DNA of 64,000 bases from Burkholderiales bacterium (GTDB lineage Bacteria > Pseudomonadota > Gammaproteobacteria > Burkholderiales > Ga0077523): positions 25,327 to 89,326 of the forward strand of contig JAIEQG010000045.1 of NCBI GenBank assembly GCA_019747905.1, given 5' to 3'. Position 1 is the first letter of the stretch. Each line of letters opens with the position of its first letter. This document shows, in pieces, positions 52,196 to 58,443 of the stretch. Made by a program: the position numbers and the translations under genes. The notes under the pieces are model-generated. The model did not search any database. It worked only from the letters and a program-made list of their open reading frames with translations, and was not told the origin of the DNA.

Positions 52196-53458
52196 TTACG
52201 ACTCGGACTTGCGCGGTGGCGCCACGCCCAGCTGCTTCAGCTTGCGGTAAAGATGGGTCCGTTCCAGGCCGACTTTTTCGGCGACGCGGCTCATGTTGCC
52301 GCCCTCGCGCGCGATGTGATACTCGAAGTAGGCGCGCTCGAAGGCGTCGCGCGCTTCACGCAGTTCCATGTCGAGCGGCAGGCCGCTCAGCGAACTCGAG
52401 CCAAAGTCGTCTTGCGAGAGTGCCGTGCCCACATCCGACGGCACGATCTCGTCGCCGGCGGCCACCAGGGCCGATGACTTCACCACGGTCTCGAGCTGCG
52501 CGAGGTTGCCGGGCCAGGGATACATGCGCAGCTGGTTCAGCGCCGCCGTACTGAACGACTTCAGCGGGATCTCCTTCGCTTCGGCCATGCGCGCCAGCAG
52601 CAGGTTGGCGATTTCGGGTATGTCCTCGGCATGTTCGCGCAGGCTCGGGATGCGCAGCGTCACCGCCGCGAGGACGCTGTAGAGCTTCGAATCGAAGTGG
52701 CCTTCGGCCACGCGCTGCGGCAACAACGGCCCCGCGGTGGAAACGAGCCGCGCGTTGCAGCGCTCGATGCCCGGCAGGTGGTGCAGCAAGGCGCGCTGCG
52801 CATCGCGACCGAGCGCATCCACCGCGCGCAGGAACAGCGATCCGTCGGATGCCTGGGCGATCTGCTTGTCGGCCGGGTCGTCGAGGAAGGCGGTATCGGC
52901 AGGCGCAATCCACGGCGTGTTCGCGCGATGCATGTAGCGCGCGCACAGGTGCCGCCCGCACCCCGGCTCCCCGAGCAGCATCACGGGCGTGCGCAGATCG
53001 CGCACGCGTTCGAGCCGTGCCTTGAGATCGGTGATGATCGGCGCGCGACCGAGGAAGGCGATGGATCGTTCAGGTACCGCCGCGACCGGCACGGCACTTT
53101 GCGCGAGCGCCTTGCCCACGGTCGCCAGCAGCTTCTGCAGTGCAATCGGCTTTTCCAGGAATCCATAGGCGCCGATGCGCGTGGCTTCCACCGCGGTATC
53201 GATGGTGCCGTGGCCCGACATCATCACCACCGGCATGGTGAGCTGGCCGCTCGCCGACCATTCCTTGAGCAGCGTGATGCCATCGGTATCGGGCATCCAG
53301 ATATCGAGAAGCACCAGATCCGGCCGCGCGCGGCCGCGCTGCTGGCGCGCCTCGGTGGCGTTCTGGGCAACACGGACCTGGTGACCTTCGTCCGACAGGA
53401 TCTCGGACAGCAGCTCGCGGATACCGACTTCGTCGTCGACCACGAGGATCTGACTCAT
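52196..53458 (-). CDS. ntrX: NtrX-like response regulator with REC, degenerate AAA+ and Fis-type HTH domains
   Basis: ILVVDDEVGIRELLSEIL; DLVLLDIWMPDTDGI; degenerate LGEPGCGRHLCAR and DGSLFLRAVDALG; C-term GGNMSRVAEKVGLERTHLYRKLKQLGV. Confidence 0.87.
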   Translation of the reverse strand: MSQILVVDDEVGIRELLSEILSDEGHQVRVAQNATEARQQRGRARPDLVLLDIWMPDTDGITLLKEWSASGQLTMPVVMMSGHGTIDTAVEATRIGAYGFLEKPIALQKLLATVGKALAQSAVPVAAVPERSIAFLGRAPIITDLKARLERVRDLRTPVMLLGEPGCGRHLCARYMHRANTPWIAPADTAFLDDPADKQIAQASDGSLFLRAVDALGRDAQRALLHHLPGIERCNARLVSTAGPLLPQRVAEGHFDSKLYSVLAAVTLRIPSLREHAEDIPEIANLLLARMAEAKEIPLKSFSTAALNQLRMYPWPGNLAQLETVVKSSALVAAGDEIVPSDVGTALSQDDFGSSSLSGLPLDMELREARDAFERAYFEYHIAREGGNMSRVAEKVGLERTHLYRKLKQLGVAPPRKSES

Positions 53459-53471
53459 GAGTACACCACGT

Positions 53472-55655
53472 TCATTCGTTGGCCGCCCTCGGCGACGCGG
53501 AGCTCACCTGTGCGACCGCCGCCGCCGGTGGAAGCCAGATGATGACGCGGGCCCCCACGGGAACGAGATTCTCGAGACGGATACGGCCGCGGTGTTCCTC
53601 GACGATCTTCTGGACGATCGCCAGCCCGAGGCCGGTACCCTTGGGCTTGGTCGTCACATAGGGTTCGAACGCCCGCCCCATCACGTCGGCGGGAAACCCG
53701 GGGCCATTGTCGGAAACACTGAGCGCGATGCCACCGCCTTCCGCGCTGACGCTGACCGCGATGATCGGCGCCGACACGGTCGCGACGGCGTCTTCCGCAT
53801 TGCGCAGCAGATTGTGAATCACCTGGCGCAGCTTGGCCGCATCACCGAGTATGGGGGGCAAGCCGGGCTGGACCTTCAACTGGATGACGAAACCCATGGA
53901 CTCGTACAGGCCGAGCACTTCGCGGGTGAGCGGCCCGAGGTCGACGGGTACGGCGCGTGTTTCCGGGGCGCGAGCGTACTCGCTGAACGCATTGACCATG
54001 CTCTTCAACGCCGCGACCTGATTGACGATCGTCTGGGTGAGTCGCTCCAGCAATTCCGCGTCGGTCGCATCGAGCTTGGCCGAAAGGCGCTGCTGCAGGC
54101 GTTCGGCGGAAAGCTGGATCGGCGTGAGCGGATTCTTGATCTCGTGCGCGAGTCGTCGCGCCACTTCGCCCCAGGCCGCCTGGCGTTGCGCCTTCATGAG
54201 ATCGGTGATGTCGTCGAACACGACGACGTGACCGCCGGGCGCGGCCTGCCGGATCGCCGCGGCACGGGCGAGCAGCATCAGTTCGCCCTGGGGTCCGTGA
54301 TAGGCGATTTGCGCCTGCCAGTCGTCTTCGAGCGGTCCGGCGAGTGCGGCATCGAGCGGTACCGCGATGGCCGCCAGCCGCGGTTCACGGTGGCGCCATT
54401 CGCTCACCGGAACGTCGATCAGGGCTTCGAGATCGATTCCGAGGATACGGCTGGCGCTCGGATTGGACGAGCGCAGACGACGCTCGCCATCGAGCGATAT
54501 CACGCCCGCGGAGAGAGTTGCGAGAATGCTCTCGAGCTGCCGCTGATAGCGTTGCGTATCGCCTTGCGATTCGGCCAGTTCGCGCGTCATCGCGTTGAAC
54601 GACTGCGTGAGAATGCCCAGTTCGTCGTAACTGCGCACCGGCGTGCGCTGGCTGAAGTCGCCCTGCGCGACCGCGCGCGTTCCCTCGGCCAGCACGCTCA
54701 AAGGCGCGGACAGTTTCTGGCTGAAGTAGATGGCGAGCAGCAGTGCCGCGAACAGCGCGAGCAACAACGCGAGGGTCAGCGTCAGCCCGTACAGCCGCTT
54801 GAGACCCGAGCGCGAGAACGCGAGCTCCTGGTATTCGGAATGGGCGAACTGGACCGCTTCGGCATTGCGCGACACGGCTTCGGGTACTCGCTGCACCAGC
54901 TCGAGCGCCAGCACATCGCCATCGGCCACGTTGACCGGCACCACCACCCGCAACAACAGGCCCCCGGAAGGCTCCGCGACAATCCCCGTGTAAGTCTTCT
55001 GCAGCCGCAGCTCGCGCAAGGCTGAAGGCGAGAGCGGATCGGGCATGAGGCCGCTGTGTTCATCACCGGAGAACGCCAGCACCGTGCCGTTGGTGTCGAG
55101 CAACGCCACTTCCTGCACTGCGGCCTGCTCGCGCAGCGTGTTGAGGAGGGCCAGCTGTTGCCGCGGCGGCCGGTCCGCCACCATCAACGCCATGGTATCG
55201 GCCTTGCCGCGCAGATCCTTCACCATGCTGTCGAGCACGTTGCGGCCCAGTGCCAGGCCACCGTCGAGCGCGCGCTCCACGCGCACGTCGAACCACGTGT
55301 CGACCGAGCGTGCAAGGAACTGCACCGACACCGCATAGACCAGCGCCCCGGGCAGCACAGCCACCAGCGAGAACAGCAGCACCAGTCGCAACGACAGCTT
55401 GGACCCGAACACGCGCTGACGCAGGCGCCGGCGCAGCGTGAGCAGCTGGTAACCAGTGAGCAGCATCAGCAGCAGGACCACACCCAGGCCCACCAGGAGC
55501 AGTTGCGGCAGACCCTGGGTGAAGGCGGGCATATCGGCGTGCGTGCCGGACAGCAGATACAGCACGATCGCGCCGACGGCTGCCACGATCGCGGCGAGCA
55601 CTCTGCCCCCGCGCGTCGTGAGCGAGAGCCAGAACAGTCTCAGGCGTCGGCTCAT
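53472..55655 (-). CDS. ntrY: NtrY-like sensor histidine kinase (HAMP-PAS-HisKA-HATPase)
   Basis: RRLAHEIKNPLTPIQLSAERLQQRL; NLLRNAEDAV; VSDNGPGFP; KGTGLGLAIVQKIVEEHRGRIRLEN. Confidence 0.92.
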   Translation of the reverse strand: MSRRLRLFWLSLTTRGGRVLAAIVAAVGAIVLYLLSGTHADMPAFTQGLPQLLLVGLGVVLLLMLLTGYQLLTLRRRLRQRVFGSKLSLRLVLLFSLVAVLPGALVYAVSVQFLARSVDTWFDVRVERALDGGLALGRNVLDSMVKDLRGKADTMALMVADRPPRQQLALLNTLREQAAVQEVALLDTNGTVLAFSGDEHSGLMPDPLSPSALRELRLQKTYTGIVAEPSGGLLLRVVVPVNVADGDVLALELVQRVPEAVSRNAEAVQFAHSEYQELAFSRSGLKRLYGLTLTLALLLALFAALLLAIYFSQKLSAPLSVLAEGTRAVAQGDFSQRTPVRSYDELGILTQSFNAMTRELAESQGDTQRYQRQLESILATLSAGVISLDGERRLRSSNPSASRILGIDLEALIDVPVSEWRHREPRLAAIAVPLDAALAGPLEDDWQAQIAYHGPQGELMLLARAAAIRQAAPGGHVVVFDDITDLMKAQRQAAWGEVARRLAHEIKNPLTPIQLSAERLQQRLSAKLDATDAELLERLTQTIVNQVAALKSMVNAFSEYARAPETRAVPVDLGPLTREVLGLYESMGFVIQLKVQPGLPPILGDAAKLRQVIHNLLRNAEDAVATVSAPIIAVSVSAEGGGIALSVSDNGPGFPADVMGRAFEPYVTTKPKGTGLGLAIVQKIVEEHRGRIRLENLVPVGARVIIWLPPAAAVAQVSSASPRAANE

Positions 55656-56266
55656 GGGCGCACCGTCCAGCGGTACCAGTCGGAAGAAAGATTCCAGCCC
55701 TTGGAGCCCAGCGCACTTACCTGGAACGCCTTGGGCAGCTGCGAAGTGTCGAGACGCAGGCGCAACTGCGCCGAGTACACCTTGTCCGCATCGAGTTCAT
55801 CGCGCGGCACGATGAAACGGTTGCGGATCTGACCCATGACCGCCAGCGCCTCGCGCAGCGAGTCGACGTTCTGCGTGAGAGCGCCGGCGGCGACCCGATA
55901 CTGGCGCGTGAGCGCGTTGTAGGTGAGCCGATAGCGCTGCCCGAAATCCGCCATGGTGCGGTTCCACAGATTGAGCAGGTACCAGCGCTCGTAGATCAGC
56001 TCGAAGTCGACCAGGAAGTTGAGCGCCACACCCTTGGTCAGGGCTTCTTCGAGCGTATCGCCCAACTCGATCTCGAAGCTTGCGTCCAGGTAGTAACCAT
56101 CGGCGCTGGAAGTGATCTCGGCCGAGCGCACGTTGATGGCCGGTTCGCCCGCATGCAGCGCACCGGGCCAGCACAGGAGCAGGACCAGCAACGCCGCGGC
56201 GGTCGCGGCCCACCGGCGCAGCTCAACGATCGGACTTTCGCAGCGGCGCGTAATAGAAACCGTCAT
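55652..56266 (-). CDS. DUF4390 domain-containing protein
   Basis: Signal peptide; INVRSAEITSSADGYYLDASFEIELGDTLEEALTKGVALNFLVDFELIYERWYL; position between rsmB and ntrY. Confidence 0.83.
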   Translation of the reverse strand: MTVSITRRCESPIVELRRWAATAAALLVLLLCWPGALHAGEPAINVRSAEITSSADGYYLDASFEIELGDTLEEALTKGVALNFLVDFELIYERWYLLNLWNRTMADFGQRYRLTYNALTRQYRVAAGALTQNVDSLREALAVMGQIRNRFIVPRDELDADKVYSAQLRLRLDTSQLPKAFQVSALGSKGWNLSSDWYRWTVRP

Positions 56267-57488
56267 GCTCTTGGTCAGGGAGAAGCTGCCCGCCGCTGCC
56301 CGGCAAACGGGCAGGCTCCGAATGACGCGCATCAGGATGGCGTTCGAGGAAGGCCTGGACCGTATCCCGGTTCTCCTCCGCAAACACCGAGCAGGTCGCG
56401 TAGAGCAATGTACCACCGGGGGCGAGGACCTGCCAAAGTGCGTCCAGCAGGCGCGCCTGCTGGCGCGCGAACGATTCGAGGTCCCCCGGGCGACGCAGCC
56501 ACTTGGCGTCAGGATGGCGTCGCACGATACCGGACGCGGAACACGGCGCATCCAGCAGGATGCGGTCGAACACGCGTCCATCCCACCACGTGTCGACGGC
56601 AGCGGCATCGGTGGCCTGCAGTTGGGCACGCAACCCCAGGCGGGCCAGCAGCCGCTCGATATCTTGGAGGCGGCGGCCGTCCACATCGATCGCGAGCAGG
56701 TCGACCGCCGCCAGTTCCAGGATGTGCGCGGCCTTGCCCCCGGGCGCGGCGCACGCGTCCAGCACGCGATCGCCATTGCGAGCCTCGAGCAATGGCGCGG
56801 CCCATTGAGCGCCCGAATCCTGGATCGAAACGAGCCCTTCGTCGAACCCGGGCAGACGTGCGGACGGCACCGGATGTTCCAGCAGCAGCGCATCGTTCTC
56901 GAGCCGTCGGACACGGATGCCCGCCTCGTCGAGCCGCGCGCGATAGGCATCGGGGGATATGCGGCGCCGGTTGACCCGGATGCTCATGGGGGGGTGTTCG
57001 AGTCCCGCCGCCAGGACCGCTTCCGCGTTCGCACCGAGCTGCCGTTCGAGCTTGTCGATCCACCACTTCGGACAGGACCACCGACCTTCCGGCGTGACCG
57101 CAGCACGCGGCAGCAGGTGTTCGCGTTCGCGCAGGAATCGCCGCAGCAGCGCGTTCACGAAACCGGCCGCGGCGGCCGCGCCGAGAGCACGAACGGCCCG
57201 TACCGCGTGATCGACGATCGCATGGGGTGCGTGGCGCGTCTGCCAGAGCTGGAACAAGGCAACCAGGACGAGCGCCTCGACCCGCTCGTCCGCTATGGGG
57301 CGTGCCGCCATCTGCGCAACCAGGGCCCGCAGAGTGCCCAGGTGCCGCAGGGTACCCTGGGTCAAGTCGAGGGCCGCCGCCCGGTCGCCCTGATCCAGCG
57401 CATCGTCTTCGAACCGGCGCTGGGCGAGGCTGCGTCCGGCCAGCACGGACGCCACCCGTTGGGCGGCGACCCGTTGGGCGGCGATCAC
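56223..57488 (-). CDS. rsmB: 16S rRNA (cytosine-967-C5)-methyltransferase
   Basis: VLDACAAPGGKAAHILEL; ILLDAPCSASGIVRRHPDAKWLRRPGD; LLYATCSVFAEEN. Confidence 0.95.
   Translation of the reverse strand: MIAAQRVAAQRVASVLAGRSLAQRRFEDDALDQGDRAAALDLTQGTLRHLGTLRALVAQMAARPIADERVEALVLVALFQLWQTRHAPHAIVDHAVRAVRALGAAAAAGFVNALLRRFLREREHLLPRAAVTPEGRWSCPKWWIDKLERQLGANAEAVLAAGLEHPPMSIRVNRRRISPDAYRARLDEAGIRVRRLENDALLLEHPVPSARLPGFDEGLVSIQDSGAQWAAPLLEARNGDRVLDACAAPGGKAAHILELAAVDLLAIDVDGRRLQDIERLLARLGLRAQLQATDAAAVDTWWDGRVFDRILLDAPCSASGIVRRHPDAKWLRRPGDLESFARQQARLLDALWQVLAPGGTLLYATCSVFAEENRDTVQAFLERHPDARHSEPARLPGSGGQLLPDQEHDGFYYAPLRKSDR
57454..57483. repeat. Perfect 15-bp tandem duplication (x2) at rsmB 5' end
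   Basis: acccgttgggcggcg acccgttgggcggcg, encoding AAQRVAAQRVA. Confidence 0.9.
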
Positions 57489-57501
57489 AGGCCGACCGCG
57501 G

Positions 57502-58443
57502 TCAAATCCCGTCCTCGAATCGGCTGCCGACCGCCACGCCGTGCCCGCGCAGGAAATCCGCCACGGCGAGGCGCTTGCCACCGGGCCGCTGGAGCTGGGT
57601 CAGCGCCAGGACTGTGGCGCCGCCGCAGGCGACCTCGATGCCTTGCGGGCCGACGGCCAGCACCTCGCCGGGAGGACGGGCCCGATCGTCCGGGCGGGCG
57701 CGAGCCCTCCAGATTTTCAGCGGCTCGCCGTTGAATCGCGCATGCGCTCCTGGAACCGGGTCGAAAGCCCGCACTTGTCGCTCGCTGACTTCCGCGGAAT
57801 CGGTCCAGCGAATGGCCGCTTCACGGCGGCCGATTTTCGGCGCATACACGGCAAGATTGTCGTCTTGCGACGTCGGTTGCACGTTGCCGCCCACCAGGCG
57901 GGCCAGGGCTTCGACGATAGCTCGCCCGCCCATTGCGGCCAGGCGGTCGTGCAGGGACCCGGCGGTTTCATCGGGCGCAATGTCGAGCGCGGTCTGGGTC
58001 AGCACCGGACCCGTATCGAGACCGACATCCATCTGCATGATGCTGATCCCGCTCGTTGCATCACCCGCCAGCAGTGCCCGCTGGATCGGCGCGGCACCGC
58101 GCCAGCGCGGCAGCAACGAGGCGTGGATGTTGATGCAGCCGCGGGGAAAGGCTTCGAGGACGGGCGGCGGCAAGATCAGCCCATAGGCAGCCACGATCAT
58201 CGCTTCAGCTCCTGTATCCCGCAGTGCGTCCGCAGCACTCGGGGTTTTCAGCGAGAGCGGTTGATCGATCCTCAAGCCGCGCGCCAGTGCCAGCCGCTTG
58301 ACCTCGCTGGGGGTCGGCTGCAGGCCGCGTCCGGCCGGGCGGTCCGGCTGGGTCAGCACGAGCACGATCTCGTGGCCCGCAGCCAACAGCGCTTCGAGCG
58401 CGACCGCGGCGAAGCCCGGCGTACCGGCAAATACCAGACGCAT
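57502..58443 (-). CDS. fmt: Methionyl-tRNA formyltransferase
   Basis: MRLVFAGTPGFAAVALEALLAAGHEIVLVLTQPDRPAGRG; INIHASLLPRWRGAAPIQRALLAGD. Confidence 0.96.
   Translation of the reverse strand: MRLVFAGTPGFAAVALEALLAAGHEIVLVLTQPDRPAGRGLQPTPSEVKRLALARGLRIDQPLSLKTPSAADALRDTGAEAMIVAAYGLILPPPVLEAFPRGCINIHASLLPRWRGAAPIQRALLAGDATSGISIMQMDVGLDTGPVLTQTALDIAPDETAGSLHDRLAAMGGRAIVEALARLVGGNVQPTSQDDNLAVYAPKIGRREAAIRWTDSAEVSERQVRAFDPVPGAHARFNGEPLKIWRARARPDDRARPPGEVLAVGPQGIEVACGGATVLALTQLQRPGGKRLAVADFLRGHGVAVGSRFEDGI

Follow-up and report, generated by a model that had tools for sequence, protein, structure and literature searches.

The window, a 64,000-nucleotide stretch of a Burkholderiales genome, encodes an NtrX-like response regulator (52196..53458, minus strand; 420 aa from an ATG start) in which the central AAA+ domain has collapsed. 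The whole is best explained, with a probability of roughly 0.8, as a phosphorylation-controlled DNA-binding regulator that would act at non-sigma-54 promoters and carry a non-catalytic AAA+ relic, representing one stage in the reduction of the domain.

The cognate sensor kinase gene ntrY (53472..55655, minus strand) lies directly upstream of the regulator gene, which places the latter among the NtrX proteins of NtrYX systems; Pfam finds NtrY_N, HAMP, PAS, HisKA (with HEIKN) and HATPase domains in the kinase. Further upstream on the same strand are a plrP-type gene with a DUF4390 domain (PF14334; 55664..56140), the 16S rRNA methyltransferase gene rsmB (56223..57581), fmt and def, and a transketolase gene is found downstream of ntrX. 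The presence of rsmB and a DUF4390 gene 5' of ntrYX is the pattern of the PlrPSR-type beta/gamma NtrYX systems, as in PMC13001219. Sequence and neighbourhood identify the protein as the PlrR-type NtrX of a locus with the gene order rsmB-plrP-ntrY-ntrX. Among characterized NtrX proteins its best full-length match, and its best match in the PDB, is Brucella abortus NtrX (5m7n; E-value of 3e-59), and NtrX also holds Foldseek ranks 1-6. The best NCBIfam match is NF051870, the NtrX equivalog, which models NtrX with a full AAA+ domain; as the score of 274 bits does not reach the cut-off of 600, the protein is classed as an NtrX-family homologue of a reduced beta type and not as an NF051870 equivalog.

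The Pfam architecture consists of Response_reg, Sigma54_activ_2, AAA_lid_14, and HTH_8. The receiver (REC) domain (53105..53458, minus strand; residues 1-118; PF00072, 1.4e-28) retains D8, D9, D52, S81, and K103, and a Fis-type helix-turn-helix (HTH) is found at the C-terminus (52223..52363, minus strand; residues 366-412; HTH_8, 1.2e-7), from which DNA binding is predicted. Between them are the collapsed AAA+ core (52640..53056, minus strand; residues 135-273; PF14532 match at residues 136-273), which takes a reduced AAA+ core fold in an AlphaFold2 model, and the AAA+ lid (52406..52639, minus strand; residues 274-351; Pfam).

The motifs of this core and lid were aligned with those of seven canonical activators from the same genome, all of which have GxxGxGKE, GAFTGA, and an intact Walker B motif. 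In the window protein, Walker A reads GEPGCGRH instead of GESGTGKE (52949..52972, minus strand; residues 163-170), the lysine and the following glutamate being missing, and Walker B reads DGSLFLRAV instead of GGTLFLDEI (52820..52846, minus strand; residues 205-213), with both acidic residues gone. The replacement of the Walker A lysine by arginine is peculiar to the branch of the window protein; in most relatives this position is occupied by A, F, V or I. The ELFGHxxGAFTGA segment is deleted (52859..52927, minus strand; residues 178-200), leaving the protein without the GAFTGA L1 loop of a sigma-54 activator (bEBP), as judged by alignment and spacing. The interval separating the Walker A and Walker B motifs has a median length of 34 residues among NtrX proteins of the order and 52 among those of the remaining class, compared with 57 in the canonical activators, and this shortening indicates that the segment is truly absent and not displaced; a shifted GAFTGA or Walker A was ruled out by the alignment and the shortened spacing. 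All three defects had been anticipated in the original prediction, made from the DNA sequence without database searches. It had also held REC, the C-subdomain and the Fis-type HTH to be intact, which stands for REC and the HTH. The C-subdomain is not fully intact, since the alignment reveals two further losses that had not been named: both arginines are missing from the R-finger region (FDSKLYSVL versus FREDLYYRL; 52670..52696, minus strand; residues 255-263), and the sensor II arginine is missing as well (WPGNLAQL versus WPGNVREL; 52493..52516, minus strand; residues 315-322). Altogether, the alignment finds no Walker A lysine, Walker B Asp-Glu pair, R-finger arginine or sensor II arginine in the window protein.

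Whether the degeneration is shared across the lineage had been left as a check, and it is found in all sampled relatives of the order (n = 112). Among the best 80 relatives in genome_contigs, mostly titled Betaproteobacteria or betaproteobacterial genera, the proteins are 415-438 aa long and none has the Walker A lysine. Full-length relatives from the order span 413-438 aa, the closest being 97% identical to the window protein. The region downstream of the DUF4390 gene was also taken from 120 genomes of the class, and NtrX was recovered in 117 of them; the 112 order sequences longer than 350 aa combine the best-80 set, this DUF4390-locus set and the window protein. The Walker A lysine occurs in one of the 112, the first R-finger arginine in none, and the sensor II arginine in one, compared with 62, 67, and 64, respectively, of the 77 sequences from the rest of the class. 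GAFTGA is absent from both groups (0/189 NtrX sequences >350 aa examined from the class). A few NtrX proteins outside the order, among them L269, L275, L252, L257, and L276, have also lost catalytic residues, apparently in parallel.

Nine members of the order, from 8 of about 30 sampled families, have no AAA+ domain at all and consist of receiver, linker, and HTH only (211-264 aa); their REC and HTH are 62-74% and 49-76% identical to those of the window protein. In a tree of receiver and HTH, 63 sequences from the order (54 collapsed, nine deleted) separate from the 77 others with an SH-aLRT of 99. The AU test of a single versus multiple origin of the complete deletion gave p = 0.082. In the order as sampled, the collapsed relic is the norm, and complete deletion is seen in certain families. 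As read from these sequences, the order-wide decay of NtrX is real but largely ordinary and not peculiar to the window genome. Four metagenome-assembled genomes titled Bordetella parapertussis (L002, L003, L008, and L041) carry the collapsed form (~416-420 aa); these titles may be wrong, as the literature gives Bordetella PlrR as a receiver plus DNA-binding domain.

The original claim that the protein cannot activate sigma-54 is supported by the loss of the catalytic and contact elements, its extent throughout the order, and the nine relatives lacking the domain. It is well supported, from the sequence comparisons, that the window protein would be unable to drive sigma-54 through ATP hydrolysis.

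No match to the sigma-54 model PF04552 was found in the window's own genome assembly, which is 91.5% complete. Since RpoN is encoded in 40/40 searched relatives, 11 of them from the same genus and including families with the AAA+-less form, the gap probably reflects the incompleteness of the assembly. At least seven intact GAFTGA-bearing activators are encoded in the window genome. Loss of RpoN as the cause of AAA+ decay was rejected given its presence in all searched relatives, which indicates that the loss of AAA+ function is uncoupled from that of RpoN.

The flanking domains are conserved. The REC acceptor and switch residues D52, S81, and K103 are invariant in all 112 order relatives, and the HTH motif [LI]ERTHLYRK is retained even in the short AAA+-less forms. 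Within the genus, dN/dS is 0.01-0.15 for REC, 0-0.13 for the HTH, and 0.03-0.47 for the relic, which is under relaxed but purifying selection. In the relic, few positions are invariant besides Q221, P271 and some fold glycines. C172 (52943-52945, minus strand) is a cysteine in 89 of the 112 order relatives, a residue uncommon in the 77 other class members, and W183 is likewise lineage-specific (101/112). The AlphaFold2 model, built from 37 sequences, gives pLDDT values of mostly 77-97 for the relic and an uncertain domain arrangement (pTM 0.60), with Brucella NtrX as its top fold match in Foldseek.

The simplest reading of the sequence data is a stepwise reduction towards a phosphorylation-controlled DNA-binding protein. 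NtrY is the presumed kinase for D52 of the receiver, and phosphorylated NtrX, probably as a dimer formed via the Fis-type HTH, would bind DNA and activate or repress promoters with no need for sigma-54. The central relic would be non-catalytic and serve at most as a spacer or dimer scaffold. We infer that the change ran from the larger to the smaller forms. A first stage would have removed the GAFTGA L1 loop, which is gone from every examined NtrX of the type. A second, seen throughout the order, would have taken the ATPase elements together with ~18 more residues, and a third, seen in certain of its families, the whole AAA+ domain. The relic may keep some role, as the AAA+ core folds in the model, some glycine and glutamine residues are kept, and selection on the region is purifying.

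This last observation could also be taken to mean that the domain is no relic and has been repurposed to bind a ligand (a nucleotide or cyclic dinucleotide) or to sense redox through the conserved cysteine. VpsR and FleQ, both bEBP-like regulators, bind a ligand of the cyclic dinucleotide kind, and structures of both with c-di-GMP are among the fold matches of the model; the lineage-specific C172 and W183 would fit such a function as well. However, VpsR and FleQ rank below the NtrX/NtrC structures and the Foldseek matches track the general AAA+ fold, few positions are invariant beyond the fold glycines, Q221, and P271, and nine relatives do without the domain. Repurposing is for these reasons improbable, as is its specific form, in which the AAA+ region would gate the signal from receiver to HTH in the order, for example as a redox switch that depends on Cys172 or as a dimer scaffold that binds a ligand.

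It is even less probable that NtrX still works with sigma-54, for instance in mixed rings with the intact activators of the same genome, although such activators exist and RpoN is found in every searched relative. With the R-finger and sensor II arginines and the L1 loop lost order-wide, NtrX would be expected to poison such rings, and the complete deletion of the domain in relatives argues that a ring is not needed. The faster divergence of the AAA+ region relative to the remainder of the protein might suggest a decaying, functionless gene or an assembly artefact, but this is the least credible of the readings, as the frame is open and hardly varies in length across 112 relatives, dN/dS is 0-0.15 in REC and HTH, and the gene cluster is conserved. 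The nearly identical lengths of relatives from the same order (413-438 aa) and the low dN/dS ruled out a frameshift, a pseudogene or an assembly artefact.

A reduction with loss first of the loop, then of catalysis, and then of the domain would constitute a compact natural example of how an enhancer-binding protein becomes a plain response regulator in a genome that has kept RpoN. Both Pfam sigma-54 models (PF14532 and PF00158) score above their cut-offs in the window protein, so automatic annotation would name it and its relatives sigma-54-dependent regulators.

The finding is of a known kind, given the precedents in PMC13001219 and PMC10274813. A passage of PMC13001219, citing Bonato 2016, describes betaproteobacterial NtrX as lacking the AAA+ domain of alphaproteobacterial NtrX, and to the extent of that passage the loss is already published. 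The same 2026 paper on Bordetella PlrSR describes the rsmB-plrP-plrSR cluster, gives PlrR as a receiver plus DNA-binding domain, and provides genetic data indicating that the phosphorylated form of PlrR is essential in Bordetella. A combined literature search for NtrX/NtrYX jointly with GAFTGA found nothing. What the present sequences appear to add beyond PMC13001219 is the graded series, the retention of a collapsed relic by most sampled families, and the absence of the GAFTGA loop from all class NtrX examined.

The window protein shares with Bordetella PlrR and betaproteobacterial NtrX the rsmB-plrP(DUF4390)-ntrY-ntrX neighbourhood and the combination of a receiver and a DNA-binding domain with no working AAA+ domain, but differs from PlrR in keeping a collapsed relic of ~139 aa plus the lid. 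Brucella abortus NtrX (5m7n/5m7o/5m7p), the best full-length match in sequence and fold, also lacks the GAFTGA loop; it has the Walker A lysine and was crystallized with ATP and ADP, whereas the window protein lacks this lysine and the other ATPase residues. With the NtrC-type sigma-54 activators, the REC-AAA+-Fis domain order is shared and the Walker A lysine, GAFTGA, Walker B acids, R-finger, and sensor II arginine are not. In Caulobacter, both NtrC and NtrX are without GAFTGA, and bEBPs that lack this motif regulate sigma-70 promoters (PMC10274813). Loss of GAFTGA goes with regulation of sigma-70 promoters in Vibrio VspR and in the NtrC proteins of Rhodobacter capsulatus and Caulobacter (PMC10274813); the window protein resembles these but has in addition lost the ATPase residues and ~18 more residues of the Walker A-to-B interval.
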